Assembly (NCBI GenBank): GCA_025449935.1
Contig: JANWIJ010000057.1
Location: 1 to 54,867 of the forward strand
From: Chitinophagaceae bacterium
GTDB lineage: Bacteria > Bacteroidota > Bacteroidia > Chitinophagales > Chitinophagaceae
Direction: 5' to 3'
Length of the DNA stretch: 54,867 nt
The notes below the pieces were generated by a model. It had not been told where the DNA came from, did not search any database, and was given only the letters and a program-made list of their open reading frames with translations. The position numbers and the translations under genes are program-made. Below, piece after piece: positions 39,738-45,328 of the stretch (position 1 is its first letter; each line of letters begins with the position of its first letter).

Positions 39738-42329
39738 TCAGAGCCCTTTTAAGAAGCGGATACTGAAAGCGTTTTCATCTCGTGACACTCCGTAGAACAT
39801 GGCCAGGGACACTCTGTTAAATGGAGCCACCATAATCCCGCCGCCATAACCATAATGCCATGTATCGGATGATTCACCGGGTTGCCAAACCCGGCCTGAA
39901 TCAAAAAAGCCTATAAGACCGGCTCTGCCATTAAACAAAAAGGTTTTTACAGCAGGGATAAACTGCAGTTCCGTTTGTGTGTAAAACATCGTTTCCCCGT
40001 GAAAACGATTCTTCCGGAATCCGCGCATGGTCCTGCCACCGCCTAATTTATTTAACTGGTAGAATTCCGGCCGGCCGGTAAGGGTGGCGGCCCCTGTTTT
40101 AAATGCGAACACAAAGGAAGGTGAAAGAGGTATGTAAAAATTGAGAGCGGTAGTGTAATGGGTAACATTGCTGTCACTAAGTGCGAGGTTTTGAGTAAAA
40201 CTGATTCCCGCCGAGAATTTTAGGCCGCGTGTAGGAACGGCGTGATCATCCAGGCGGTCGTATTCATACCCAAGTTTTGCACCCCCAAAATTCTTCGTCC
40301 CAAAATCCTGGAACTTGGGTGTTTCTTCGGCGAGGAACCTGCCTGGGTCGTTCAGGATCTCGATGGTCTCATAATAAACAGTAAAAGCTGTAAGATGATT
40401 ACCGGCAAACCTTCTTTCTAAACCGGCGCCTGCATATAATTGTTTAGAACGAACCCTGTTATAATTATTGTCCGTCGTTAACTCACGGGTTTCATTCCCC
40501 ACTCCGAAATAATTGTTCCACCGGATAAAATCATAGTCAGCCTGCAAACGAAGGTCCCAGTTGCCGGCCACCTTTGTAAAAATTCCGGAATACCCGAACC
40601 CCAAAGCCGCCTGGTTCACAGAATACCGGGCTGCAATTTCCTGTTGCTGGCCAAAAGGATACTTGCGCCATTGCTGTTTTTGAACACTGTATTTAATACC
40701 AAAGTGGATTCGGTCATTTGAGCTATAGGAAAGAACAGGTCCGAAACCTTTCTTATCATATTTAAAAGCATTGTAATTATACAAGTGTACAAATGGATTT
40801 TGGGAAAGGTGTTTTTTCCCACTGGTAAGGTTTGAGAAATCGTTCTCCTTATTATCATAAATATGTACGTGGTTTGTTCCGGGTGATGCAGCATAAATAT
40901 CTTTTCCCGGTCCACCAATCACCCGGATCTTCAGTTTATTTCCGGGGAGGGATTGTATAGTATACTTGTCATTACCCGTTAATCCATAAACTCTTATTTC
41001 CCGGGTTTCATTCGTAAAAAACTTCCTGGAATAAAATGGTTTTTCCTTCGGGTTTCCTTCTTTATCGAAATCGTACACGGTTATTTCCGTTTCCTTATCT
41101 GAGACAGAGCGGATTTCAAAAAATTCAGCGTCATGAGTACCCACCACGTCCACTTCCCTGGCCAGGAAAGCGTAATACTCTCCCGCAAATTCAACCAGCT
41201 TATCCCGGCGTGATTTTAATTTTTGAATTATTTCCATTCCGGATAGGGAAAAAACTTCAGGAGGAAGTTGCCGGACAGATTCTTCGATCACTTTATTCGT
41301 CAGTGATTCCTGTAATTCTTTGGCGATGCCGATCCATTGTTCACGGGATGGTTCGTTGGCGGCCTGCCGGTCAAGATTCCTGGCCGGGAAATTATAAGTA
41401 GCCACATTTTTTATATCACTGCCGAAACTTTCAAGATGACCGGCCCCTGCGGCGGAGATGGCCACGGAAAGTAATGCGCCGTCAAATTTTGTATAAGCCT
41501 GGTCCCTGTCACGGGGAATAGGTTTATACCATTTTTTTTCGCCGTCCTCGATGGTGGCCCAACGCCATTGATCTTCGTGACGTCCCCAGTCGCCGATAAA
41601 CATATCAAATAACCTGGCCCTGACAAATCCTAACTGGTCAACCCGGTTGTCATTGTCTTTAAATATATTTTCAAGCATCTTTTCGGTGCCGACAATTTTT
41701 TTAGCGTTCCCGAAATTGGAGGCTTCTTCCCAATTCTCATCGGGACGTTGCTCAAAAAGGTAAAGGTCATCTCCAAAGTCCTTATTGAATTCCCCCAACG
41801 CCTTTTGTGACGGGACAAAAACAACTTGAGGATTCGTGTGATAAACTGAGGCTGCTTCCGCCATGCCGGGAATCGTAACAGCTGCATAGGGCTGGGCAAT
41901 AGAAACCTGGTCATCTATAATTCTTTCAATGAAAGTACCCCGGTACTTATCAGGCAAAGCCTTTCCAAATGATTTATCGATGCTGCGCAACACATATTCT
42001 TTTCCCGCTGTATTTCGTAAACGGAGTGTTTTACTTTGGCGTCCACCCCCTTTTTCATAGGCGGTAAGACCCCCATTGACGGTGTCAAGATTGATTGTAC
42101 TGACTCTTACCGGGGTTGCCCAATCCTTGCGGTAATGCTTTCCCCATAAGAACTGGTGAAAAGAACTTTTGTTATACTGCCCGCCTGCAATAACCGTCCT
42201 GGCGCCAGGTTGAATTAATGAATCCTCAGTTTGGGGAAATGCAGGGACAGCTATCAAATAAAATACTGCCCATAAAACTAAAAAACGGGTGATAGCTCCT
42301 GGTTTTCGCGAATCGCTGCTGAAAGTCAT
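39738..42329 (-). CDS. BamA/TamA-type outer-membrane barrel with N-terminal cryptic kinase-like region
   Basis: The protein has 863 residues with a signal peptide (cleavage near AFPQT). Residues ~520-863 are the D15/BamA-type barrel, with LGGGRTMRGFR holding the conserved RGF motif (768-772). Residues ~95-300 are not a POTRA array. They contain VLRSIDK (Lys119), RARLFDMFIGDWGRHEDQWRW (residues 237-257) and KPIPRDRDQAY (269-279). The pattern D..IG(N/D)xDRHxxxW then a metal-binding Asp resembles the catalytic loop of HipA/CotH/FAM20-type kinases. The usual catalytic Asp is Gly249 here (GGA), while Asp274/Asp276 remain. Homologues are usually just called BamA/TamA family. It is on the minus strand between mdh and a T9SS protein; no operon partner is evident. 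Confidence 0.8.
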   Translation of the reverse strand: MTFSSDSRKPGAITRFLVLWAVFYLIAVPAFPQTEDSLIQPGARTVIAGGQYNKSSFHQFLWGKHYRKDWATPVRVSTINLDTVNGGLTAYEKGGGRQSKTLRLRNTAGKEYVLRSIDKSFGKALPDKYRGTFIERIIDDQVSIAQPYAAVTIPGMAEAASVYHTNPQVVFVPSQKALGEFNKDFGDDLYLFEQRPDENWEEASNFGNAKKIVGTEKMLENIFKDNDNRVDQLGFVRARLFDMFIGDWGRHEDQWRWATIEDGEKKWYKPIPRDRDQAYTKFDGALLSVAISAAGAGHLESFGSDIKNVATYNFPARNLDRQAANEPSREQWIGIAKELQESLTNKVIEESVRQLPPEVFSLSGMEIIQKLKSRRDKLVEFAGEYYAFLAREVDVVGTHDAEFFEIRSVSDKETEITVYDFDKEGNPKEKPFYSRKFFTNETREIRVYGLTGNDKYTIQSLPGNKLKIRVIGGPGKDIYAASPGTNHVHIYDNKENDFSNLTSGKKHLSQNPFVHLYNYNAFKYDKKGFGPVLSYSSNDRIHFGIKYSVQKQQWRKYPFGQQQEIAARYSVNQAALGFGYSGIFTKVAGNWDLRLQADYDFIRWNNYFGVGNETRELTTDNNYNRVRSKQLYAGAGLERRFAGNHLTAFTVYYETIEILNDPGRFLAEETPKFQDFGTKNFGGAKLGYEYDRLDDHAVPTRGLKFSAGISFTQNLALSDSNVTHYTTALNFYIPLSPSFVFAFKTGAATLTGRPEFYQLNKLGGGRTMRGFRKNRFHGETMFYTQTELQFIPAVKTFLFNGRAGLIGFFDSGRVWQPGESSDTWHYGYGGGIMVAPFNRVSLAMFYGVSRDENAFSIRFLKGL

Positions 42330-42496: not shown

Positions 42497-45328
42497 TTAC
42501 CTGACAATAGTGATCACACCTTTGCGGGTTACCATATTTCCATTGTAATCCACCGCTTCAGCAATCCATACGAAAGTACCTGTTGGTTGTTCCAGTCCCT
42601 TTATTTTCCCGTCCCACCCTTTGGAAGGATCCTGTGTGGAAAATATCATCTGGCCCCATCGGTTAAATACCCGGAAATATTTAAAATCCCTGATCCCAAC
42701 CGGAATAGCCCTTAGCACATCATTGAGCCCGTCATTATTCGGAGTAAATCCTGAAGGAACATAAATATCCGGCCCCTTATATACTTTGATAAGAATATCA
42801 TCCATGCCTTCACATCCTTCAGGTGTTTTGCCGGTTACAATATAGCGGTAATCATGCGGGAGTGTGGCAACCGGTTTAGCAATACCGGGATCATTCAAGT
42901 AAGTGCCGGGCGACCAGCTGTATGATGTTACGCCGGCATTGCCGGTTTCAATGACCTGCAGCTGAACAGGCTGGTTAATAGCCGCCACGGTGTCCTTCCC
43001 CGCAAATATTTTTACCGATGGCGTTACTTTCACATCCACGTCATCAGTGGTAAGCGACAGGCACCCGGAGGCATCTGTTACCTGCAGGTAATATGTGATA
43101 TTATCAGTGGCTTTGAGTGTTGGCGAGGCTATATCCGGTGAAGTGATTAAATAGGTAATGGGAGACCAGTGATAAATCACACCACCCGACCCATTCAATT
43201 GAATTGATTTACCATAGCACACAGTGGTATCCGGGCCTGCATTGGCAACCGGGGCTGGTTTAACATTAATTAGTATAGAATCGGTCCTGGTGCATATACC
43301 TGTGGCAGCAATAACATAATACATAGTGGTAACAGCCGGTGATGCTGTAGGTGTTAATGTATTGGCGCCGGTCAATGTTGCGTTGGGGGTCCAGGCATAG
43401 CTGTTTGCATTTGAAACAGCGGGTATGATGTAGGGTACTCCTTCGCAGGTGCTGGTATCTTTGCCGGCGTCGATACTAACAATATTATCTAATAAAACAG
43501 TTACAGGCTGAGTTGCCAGGCAACCGTTAATGTCTTTTAAAGTGATGATATAATTGCCGGCAACCAGGTTAAAAACATTGACCGGCTGGAAATTGACCCC
43601 GTCAATCGAGTAAGTGTAAGGATTACTTCCGCCAGATGCCGTAACATTTATTTGTCCATCAGGGTTCCCGGAACAACTGGCGGGGGTGACAGCCGCATTA
43701 TTTATAAGGAGATCCGGGAATGCCTGTGCAATAGTTACTGTAATACTGTCAATGCAGCTGGCATCTCTTATTTTCACACTGTACACGCCCGCGACTAAAT
43801 TGAAGAAATTCCCGGTGGCCTGCCAGTTAATTCCATCCAGCGAAAATTCTACGGGTGGATTCCATTCCATTCCCCCGGTCACCCTGATATTGCCCGAAGC
43901 AGCGTTTCGGCAATTTACATCCAGCTTCGATATGAAATCAATGTCCTTCCATTTAATAAAAACGGAATCGCGTGCATTACAGCTTCCTTCGATGGCGGTG
44001 CATATATACGTCGTTGCGCTGTTGACGGGTGTTGCGACCGGGTTCCGGATGCTGGTGCTGCTGAGTGTAGGATCTGCATTCCATTGATATAGGCTGTAGC
44101 CAGCAGAAGCTGTCAACTGTATGGAACTGTTTTTACAAATATAAGCAGTGTCCGGGCTGAGGGAAAGAATGTCATAATCCCTGATCTGGATCATCGTACT
44201 GTCTGTAGGTGTGCCCGCCGAACAACCTGCCAGTGCAAACACTTTTAATTCTTCTATTCCTTCCGCTATGCCATCTATTAAAGGAATCACATTCACGGTA
44301 ACAAAGCTGTCATTCGCAGGGATAGTGACCAGGTTGGGTAAAGTCTGAACATCAATACCGTTTACGGCAACACCGCCATATGAAAGAGAGACACTCAGTG
44401 GAGTCGGGTCTTTCCTGGGACGCCTGATATTAAATGCACCCGTAGCACAACCTTCAACCAGGTAACTATTGCCTGATGGATCAGTTTGTGTAAGATTGGT
44501 CATACCAATGGCGTTGGATGTAAGACTTTTGGCCTGGAGAAAAACACCTGTATCAAAAAGATCGTCACCGATATCAGAAATCACCAGTTTCAGGTGATAG
44601 GTTTCACAGGGTTGAACCCGTGCTAATGCTGTAAGCAAGCGTGTGTGCCCGTCATGAGTAAAAAAAGTATTGAACCGGTTATCACTGTAATAAGCTATGT
44701 TATTCGGACAGGCCCCTCCAGGAACGTCATTCACATTGAAAATGGAAACGGGAATAGTAGTATTGGGTATTAAAGCGATATTCTGTAAACCGGTAATTCC
44801 CGGGCCTGATATAAAAAAAGCGAAAGCATCATTAAAACTGCATACAAAAGCAGGAGTATATTCTTCTGAACTGAACACATAATTGAATTTGATACTGTCT
44901 CCAAGGGGCACAAAATCAAATTCAAGAACACAGGCATCTTCCATACTGTTAACTGGCACCCCAATGGCGGCAGCCAGATCAAAGTCCCCGGGAAGATTCC
45001 AGCCATTGTCTGCGGTTACACTTTCCGCAGTCGCGATCCCATTTCCATCCACCCCAATATCGGTATGAGCGGTTTTTGCCCGGCCGCTTGTCAGTACAAT
45101 TCCGCTATCAATATTAATATTGGTTCCCCCGCTATTATTAAAAAAGCCGGCCATAGCCGGGTTACCGGTAAAAGTTACGTTGCTGATTGTAACCCCATCA
45201 CCAACGAGTTTTTGTGCAAGGGCCTGTGCGCTGGGATGGTTGGTGATAATTAGTTGACCGGAAACAAGAGTGCTCGCAAATAAAAAAGAAATAGTAACAA
45301 AGAGATGTTTGATTAGCAGTGCTTTCAT
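42497..45328 (-). CDS. Choice-of-anchor L protein with T9SS type B / gliding C-terminal domain
   Basis: The protein has 943 residues with a signal peptide (cleavage near VSGQL). Residues ~24-290 form a choice-of-anchor L domain: NVTFTGNPAMAGFFNNSGGTNINIDSGIVLTSG and DACVLEFDFVPLGDSIKFNYVFSSEEYTPAF. A middle Calx-beta-like and PKD/Ig-like series follows, with two SprB-like repeats (SLDGINWQATGNFFNLVAGVYSVKIRD and YSIDGVNFQPVNVFNLVAGNYIITLKD). The C-terminus is a gliding-motility-associated type B sorting domain, FTPNNDGLNDVLRAIPVG to GVITIVR. It is probably a large surface or secreted adhesin exported through the T9SS. Which ligand it binds is unknown. Confidence 0.87.
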   Translation of the reverse strand: MKALLIKHLFVTISFLFASTLVSGQLIITNHPSAQALAQKLVGDGVTISNVTFTGNPAMAGFFNNSGGTNINIDSGIVLTSGRAKTAHTDIGVDGNGIATAESVTADNGWNLPGDFDLAAAIGVPVNSMEDACVLEFDFVPLGDSIKFNYVFSSEEYTPAFVCSFNDAFAFFISGPGITGLQNIALIPNTTIPVSIFNVNDVPGGACPNNIAYYSDNRFNTFFTHDGHTRLLTALARVQPCETYHLKLVISDIGDDLFDTGVFLQAKSLTSNAIGMTNLTQTDPSGNSYLVEGCATGAFNIRRPRKDPTPLSVSLSYGGVAVNGIDVQTLPNLVTIPANDSFVTVNVIPLIDGIAEGIEELKVFALAGCSAGTPTDSTMIQIRDYDILSLSPDTAYICKNSSIQLTASAGYSLYQWNADPTLSSTSIRNPVATPVNSATTYICTAIEGSCNARDSVFIKWKDIDFISKLDVNCRNAASGNIRVTGGMEWNPPVEFSLDGINWQATGNFFNLVAGVYSVKIRDASCIDSITVTIAQAFPDLLINNAAVTPASCSGNPDGQINVTASGGSNPYTYSIDGVNFQPVNVFNLVAGNYIITLKDINGCLATQPVTVLLDNIVSIDAGKDTSTCEGVPYIIPAVSNANSYAWTPNATLTGANTLTPTASPAVTTMYYVIAATGICTRTDSILINVKPAPVANAGPDTTVCYGKSIQLNGSGGVIYHWSPITYLITSPDIASPTLKATDNITYYLQVTDASGCLSLTTDDVDVKVTPSVKIFAGKDTVAAINQPVQLQVIETGNAGVTSYSWSPGTYLNDPGIAKPVATLPHDYRYIVTGKTPEGCEGMDDILIKVYKGPDIYVPSGFTPNNDGLNDVLRAIPVGIRDFKYFRVFNRWGQMIFSTQDPSKGWDGKIKGLEQPTGTFVWIAEAVDYNGNMVTRKGVITIVR

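Follow-up and report, generated by a model that had tools for sequence, protein, structure and literature searches.

A predicted protein-kinase-like domain on an Omp85 outer-membrane barrel in Bacteroidota, with recurrent exchange of its catalytic aspartate for glycine

Several described systems come close to the protein considered here, which is encoded in a stretch of 54,867 nucleotides (the window) from a Chitinophagaceae bacterium (assembly GCA_025449935.1, contig JANWIJ010000057.1) and in which a protein-kinase-like domain is predicted to be joined to an Omp85 barrel. Among kinases, HipA is a cytoplasmic toxin paired with HipB, and in the Golgi the pseudokinase Fam20A acts as partner of the casein kinase Fam20C. 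The window protein differs from HipA/CtkA (PF07804) in having a signal peptide and a barrel, and from Fam20C and Fam20A, to which it has no sequence match, in being bacterial and barrel-anchored. CotH (PF08757) resembles the present family in that, by profile alignment, an invariant Asp is followed about 25 residues on by an IPxD-type Asp; the family is, however, fused or linked to an Omp85 barrel and has a motif of its own, and the window protein gives no Pfam match to CotH. Among barrel proteins, the patatin-type Omp85 protein PlpD likewise bears a periplasmic enzyme domain N-terminal to a 16-strand barrel, but with a patatin lipase and POTRA where the window protein has the kinase-like domain (available text of PMC11116518). 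The Omp85 'Metallo' subfamily of Heinz and Lithgow (2014; available text of PMC4104836) combines PF00149 with an Omp85 barrel, as does a long form of the present family, whereas in the window protein Pfam detects no PF00149 ahead of the barrel. That paper terms the PF00149-Omp85 domain a metalloprotease, and its main text as available does not contain the word kinase; the available main texts of two papers on the Bacteroidota BAM complex (PMC12611786, PMC12578637) contain neither 'kinase' nor 'phosphatase'. The original prediction, made from the window sequence, had regarded a kinase-like domain on an Omp85 barrel as an architecture not known to be described, and we too found no description in the open literature as available to us, a scope that takes in few subscription journals and preprints; hence the kinase-like family is apparently new, and its barrel of a known type. 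Our reading, to which we give a probability of roughly 0.55, is that the family comprises outer-membrane-tethered phosphotransferases facing the periplasm, of which the window copy, with Gly in place of the catalytic Asp, is probably a regulatory or non-canonical member. The gene is laid out as follows:

39738..42329, minus strand: whole gene, an exact open reading frame of 863 amino acids plus stop, comprising signal peptide, kinase-like domain, beta-rich linker and Omp85 barrel.
42231..42329, minus strand: Sec signal peptide, residues 1-33, boundary set by eye, with hydrophobic FLVLWAVFYLIAV and then PAFPQ.
41157..42110, minus strand: predicted protein-kinase-like domain, residues 74-391, delimited by the extent of the CotH and PI4K matches.
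40755..41156, minus strand: beta-rich linker, residues 392-525, from the secondary structure of predicted models.
39753..40754, minus strand: 16-strand Omp85 barrel, residues 526-859, from strands counted in the model and from Foldseek.
40017..40028, minus strand: MRGF, residues 768-771, the Omp85 loop-6 RGF motif.

The AlphaFold2 model of the kinase-like domain (pLDDT 93.9) has CotH as its top Foldseek match, with CtkA/HipA, PI4KIIα and the Fam20 kinases as further structural matches, and it is predicted to adopt the bilobal kinase fold of the protein-kinase-like clan, as had been proposed from the sequence. Sequence searches of Pfam, NCBIfam and PDB yielded nothing of use for this domain. 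Pfam at E up to 10 (HMMER filters discard most matches with E above about 0.1) reported barrel families alone for the window protein and nothing before residue 561, with neither CotH nor HipA_C (PF07804) among the matches; the kinase-like domain by itself matched no Pfam family at E up to 1; and 80 such domains gave no convincing match to Pfam, the best E being 0.0018 and none being a kinase among the best 25 of 40 weak families. The sole NCBIfam match of the window protein was a sub-threshold barrel model, its search against PDB sequences gave one weak unrelated match (E 0.32), and a profile built from the 80 domains matched no PDB sequence. The models thus suggest that the kinase-clan fold holds, and, if it does, that Pfam has no entry for this member of the kinase clan.

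The barrel is recognized directly, with Pfam matches to Omp85 (PF01103) at residues 561-834 (E 8.9e-14; 52.2 bits against a cut-off of 24) and to ShlB at 681-832 (E 3.6e-6). A model of residues 34-863 built with 97 sequences (pLDDT 94.2, pTM 0.90) has 16 long barrel strands among its listed elements, and Foldseek retrieved BamA (4k3c; E 9.3e-12) and then TamA as the best matches of the barrel. The protein accordingly combines a BamA/TamA-type 16-strand barrel with the loop-6 RGF motif of Omp85 proteins, given as VRGF/Y in the available text of PMC12611786, whose Arg and Gly are each kept in at least 90% of the 97 sequences. The original prediction of a signal peptide and a barrel with no POTRA-like sequence between them agrees with the whole-protein Pfam scan, in which no POTRA was found (the linker, 392-525, had no separate search); where POTRA might stand, residues 74-391 are modelled as kinase-like. 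The linker is also present in relatives that lack a barrel. The signal peptide region, with its PAFPQ, agrees with the Bacteroidetes Q-rule (available text of PMC5837995). When the coordinates were re-translated, the motifs singled out earlier were located from residue 113 (VLRSIDK), 246 (GDWGRH) and 273 (RDRDQ), and the features of the putative active site are these:

41973..41987, minus strand: Arg115 to Lys119, candidate ATP-binding basic residues.
41751..41753, minus strand: Glu193, on a predicted strand.
41577..41594, minus strand: GDWGRH, residues 246-251, the catalytic-loop motif, aligned with the CotH and HipA motifs.
41583..41585, minus strand: Gly249 (codon GGA), in place of the catalytic Asp.
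41502..41513, minus strand: RDRD, residues 273-276, presumed metal-binding (DFG-like).

Conservation was assessed in an alignment of 125 distinct domains from retrieved loci, in which position 249 was also read; 13 rows had been omitted before counting (nine duplicates, one containing X and three partial), as had four loci repeating the window gene or L006 (L002, L003, L005 and L009). Glu193, Arg239, Asp242, Asp247, Arg250 and Gly284 are invariant (125/125), Arg115 and Lys119 are each kept in 124, and His251, Asp274 and Asp276 each in 123. This conservation rules out a chance motif. The commonest form of residues 246-251 is GDWDRH, within a motif peculiar to the family, GDxDRHxxQWxW...RDRDQ. 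In profile alignment Asp274 coincides with an invariant Asp of CotH, and the window copy appears to retain, as Asp274/Asp276, the metal-binding Asp of the clan. The strand bearing Glu193 would, we presume, run into the hinge. Lys119 had been proposed as the ATP lysine; Arg115 lies on a predicted strand (model residues 78-83) and Lys119 comes just after it, so that in the model the assignment is ambiguous between the two.

Position 249 aligns with the Asp that is invariant in the motifs of CotH and HipA, which bears out the original placing of Gly249 at the catalytic Asp, so that the window copy lacks the Asp expected at the D-x-H/HRD position. The comparison of GDWDRH with GDWGRH forms then proposed gives Asp in 112 of the 125 relatives, Gly in 11 (the window copy among them), and Ser and Asn in one each. 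The Gly rows have a mean identity of 44% to each other. At 12 other active-site columns they retain 130 of 132 cells, the two exceptions being Gln254 to Asn, and at 12 further invariant columns, column 249 excluded, likewise 130 of 132; the Asp rows of the same clade keep 143 of 144 and 155 of 156, the latter figure counting column 249. Since their active-site cells are retained to this extent, the site in the Gly rows remains constrained. The window copy is a variant under constraint and not a decaying gene: with its reading frame unbroken, and with Gly rows that preserve the active-site columns as well as other invariant columns, a decaying pseudogene is ruled out. A degenerate relative (L040:263-3889) stands in contrast, with Arg119, Asn249, Asn251, Asn274 and Ser276. 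This relative is a metallophosphoesterase-kinase-barrel protein in tandem with a Gly249 copy. A stand-alone kinase-like protein, encoded at L083:1444-3063 by a gene that L276 also covers, has Ser249 and Arg251.

A tree of the 125 domains, with column 249 excluded, calls for four changes between Gly and other states, and a more careful tree of 32 chosen rows also calls for four, three of them forced by well supported branches; some Asp rows may be reversions. The approximately unbiased (AU) test rejected the idea that Gly249 arose just once in the clade of the window copy (p 2.5e-47; 10 Gly rows among the 32), with the group of Gly rows picked after their states were known and L113 excluded from it. 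The repeated interchange, along with the retention of the other active-site residues in the Gly rows, would also suit Gly copies that are still active kinases, with Asp247, two residues upstream and present in all 125 rows while position 249 varies, or some other group replacing Asp249. Position 249 itself, however, is the one that aligns with the invariant CotH/HipA Asp and is Asp in most relatives, and we consider continued activity of the Gly copies unlikely, though not far-fetched.

The mechanism that we favour, a tethered phosphotransferase with a regulatory or non-canonical Gly member, would run as follows. The signal peptide would send the protein to the periplasm, the BamA/TamA-type barrel would anchor it in the outer membrane, and the CotH/HipA/Fam20/PI4K-clan domain would hang off the N-terminus of the barrel on the periplasmic side, a position that we infer by analogy with PlpD as described in the available text of PMC11116518. 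Typical members, with the full catalytic set, would probably modify an envelope molecule with phosphate or with a related group taken from a nucleotide. A metallophosphoesterase would work alongside the kinase-like domain, both in the long form and where three genes form an operon, making up a writer/eraser or a transfer/trim pair. The window copy, having presumably lost canonical catalysis, has most likely kept the binding of nucleotide or metal, and it most likely assists the Asp paralogues of its cell by regulating them or by holding substrate, much as Fam20A does for Fam20C. All 11 genomes in which a Gly copy was read also hold at least one Asp copy, and in L049 the EF-P/MDH-type locus, at which the window copy lies too, has an Asp and a Gly copy in tandem.

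Certain observations weigh against this reading. The main difficulty is the missing periplasmic phosphate donor, for which extracellular nucleotides, polyphosphate or another donor are possible candidates. At least two copies occur in 47 of the 122 matching genomes of the order (up to three candidates scored in each), so that multiple copies are common in any case. Moreover, the window gene (on contig C57) does not lie in the PycTM/cyclase setting that recurs at other loci of the family; the PycTM matches of its own genome are on contigs C32 and C45. Provided that the predicted fold is correct, this kinase-clan domain is present in roughly one in three of the genomes sampled from the phylum (143/395), mostly fixed to the outer membrane. 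This raises the questions of which substrate is modified, what supplies the donor in a compartment where no ATP is known, and why the catalytic Asp is repeatedly swapped for Gly while the remaining site is frozen.

The genomic context of the family was surveyed at 40 family genes, each from a different genus and together covering 17 taxonomic families. They were hand-picked from the phylum matches for the length of their contigs rather than drawn randomly, and some 8 kb to either side was included as far as the contig reached; stretches 60 kb off on the same contigs, obtainable for 39 of the 40, served as controls. Neighbours were grouped by sequence clusters, named from Pfam scans of a few representatives. 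A PycTM protein lies near 33 of the 40 genes (14 of the 17 families), an SdiA-regulated-type propeller near 24 (12 families) and a family of about 790 amino acids near 16 (5 families), none of these occurring in the controls. Members of this last family (e.g. L189:3859-6252) gave no Pfam match over the cut-off, one of them having a sub-threshold GAF match. A class III cyclase was found near 11 genes with an iterated profile (clusters gave 10 loci, from 4 families) and in no control. The controls have recurrent clusters as well, the commonest in 7 and 6 of 39, presumably owing to gene order common to related genera, and neighbour counts near six therefore mean little; the counts of 33, 24 and 16 stand clear of this background. 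PPK1, near 6 of the 40 genes (5 of 17 families) and in no control, was dropped as a linked neighbour, since the commonest control clusters recur at least as often.

Of the 34 PycTM proteins at family loci 24 are longer than 330 amino acids; among those scanned, two long ones combine HD with PycTM and one short one is PycTM alone. Across the 395 genomes of the phylum, 122 have both the family and PycTM, 21 the family alone, 23 PycTM alone and 229 neither (Fisher p 7e-55, the relatedness of genomes being ignored). This tight link suggests a chromosomal role beyond phage defence for what is termed a 'Pycsar effector' domain. At one locus (L275:2808-5766) a stand-alone kinase-like gene directly adjoins a gene for a PycTM-domain protein, and the link thus does not require the barrel. 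In the window's own genome, contig C32 (L270:4641-13081) encodes a family gene, a class III cyclase, an SdiA-regulated propeller, an HD-PycTM protein and two PAP2 proteins; the family gene is cut by the contig end and has no PF00149 in its remaining part, though it is presumably of the long form. On contig C50 a short form adjoins a member of the family of about 790 amino acids. Beside the window gene itself no PycTM was seen, in contrast to a Pycsar locus with its cyclase and PycTM effector, and PADLOC assigned no defence family to the window protein, giving one weak local match (E 0.0002) for a long relative.

These neighbours bear on the possibility that the domain is a sensor of a nucleotide, an inositol phosphate or another phosphorylated ligand, which steers the barrel or the cyclase and PycTM neighbours. 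The signalling type of the PycTM, propeller and cyclase neighbours would agree with this, as would a periplasm in which ATP is not expected and the repeated exchange of the Asp. A pure sensor would nevertheless have no need of both the catalytic and the metal Asp, which are kept in about 90% of members, and versions without a barrel imply that barrel gating is not the general job of the domain; we accordingly think a sensor improbable, about on a par with catalytically active Gly copies. Speculatively, the tethered phosphotransferases could belong to a trans-envelope phospho-signalling system of Bacteroidota, in which a kinase-like writer and a metallophosphatase eraser in the periplasm are coupled, by way of an SdiA-type propeller, to a class III cyclase of the inner membrane and to an HD-PycTM receiver, with the Asp-to-Gly members as regulatory subunits. 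Phosphorylation of a lipid, in the manner of PI4K, is a rival to be taken seriously but seems less probable still than a sensor: linkage to PAP2 is not general (3 of 40 loci against 1 of 39 controls), so that PAP2 is unsupported as a general neighbour, and the protein kinase CotH has an equal Z. Two loci (L186:1664-7389 and L187:1587-8052) place the family gene near CotH, PAP2 and Porin_O_P-like genes, a grouping of kinase-, phosphatase- and phosphate-porin-type functions; CotH beside a family gene was noticed, from close coordinates, in these two genomes alone.

The family matches 19 of 58 close genomes, 122 of 396 of the order and 143 of 395 of the phylum, and a scan of genome contigs gave 23 loci, which by their titles we take to be from Bacteroidota and Rhodothermia-type bacteria. 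PF00149 precedes the kinase-like domain in all four complete long relatives scanned (1,170-1,249 amino acids), and the first 400 residues of 74 proteins longer than 1,150 amino acids contain the phosphoesterase-type motifs GDx(x)(D/Y) in 68, GNH(D/E) in 63 and GHxH in 63, with DxH in just 31. In two genomes of one genus (L271:4051-8094 and L272:1841-5793) three adjacent genes on the same strand match the fused long protein, encoding a kinase-like protein with a lipobox-like signal (judged by eye), a PF00149 protein and an Omp85 barrel. Such splitting into separate genes speaks for a single functional unit made up of kinase-like domain, phosphoesterase and barrel, in which the barrel is a replaceable anchor. 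Five further loci (L273, L274, L275, L276 and L278) have the kinase-like domain but, within the 10-11 kb read, no barrel match, and at L277 the contig ends soon after the kinase-like gene. The stand-alone proteins of L273, L274 and L276 come paired or in threes, several of them lipobox-like by eye, with no barrel nearby. Least probable is a protein that is mainly an Omp85 factor for outer-membrane protein assembly or secretion, its kinase-like domain merely substituting for POTRA, since, for all its BamA/TamA-like barrel with the RGF motif and the proposal in the available text of PMC4104836 that for uncharacterized Omp85 types a part in assembly is the most conservative hypothesis, such a factor would not need to keep a catalytic motif, and the domain occurs with the phosphoesterase as separate genes beside a separate barrel, as well as with no barrel at all. 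A metallophosphoesterase of Riemerella, a conceivable member of the present family, is ranked among type IX secretion system (T9SS) effectors in the available text of a review (PMC10202324).

The window gene is flanked by genes for a large secreted protein and an MDH-like protein, an order partly shared with L039, L041, L049, L050 and L095 (gene names by eye). The former, upstream on the same strand (42497-45328 of the window), appears by eye to have a C-terminus of the gliding/T9SS type.
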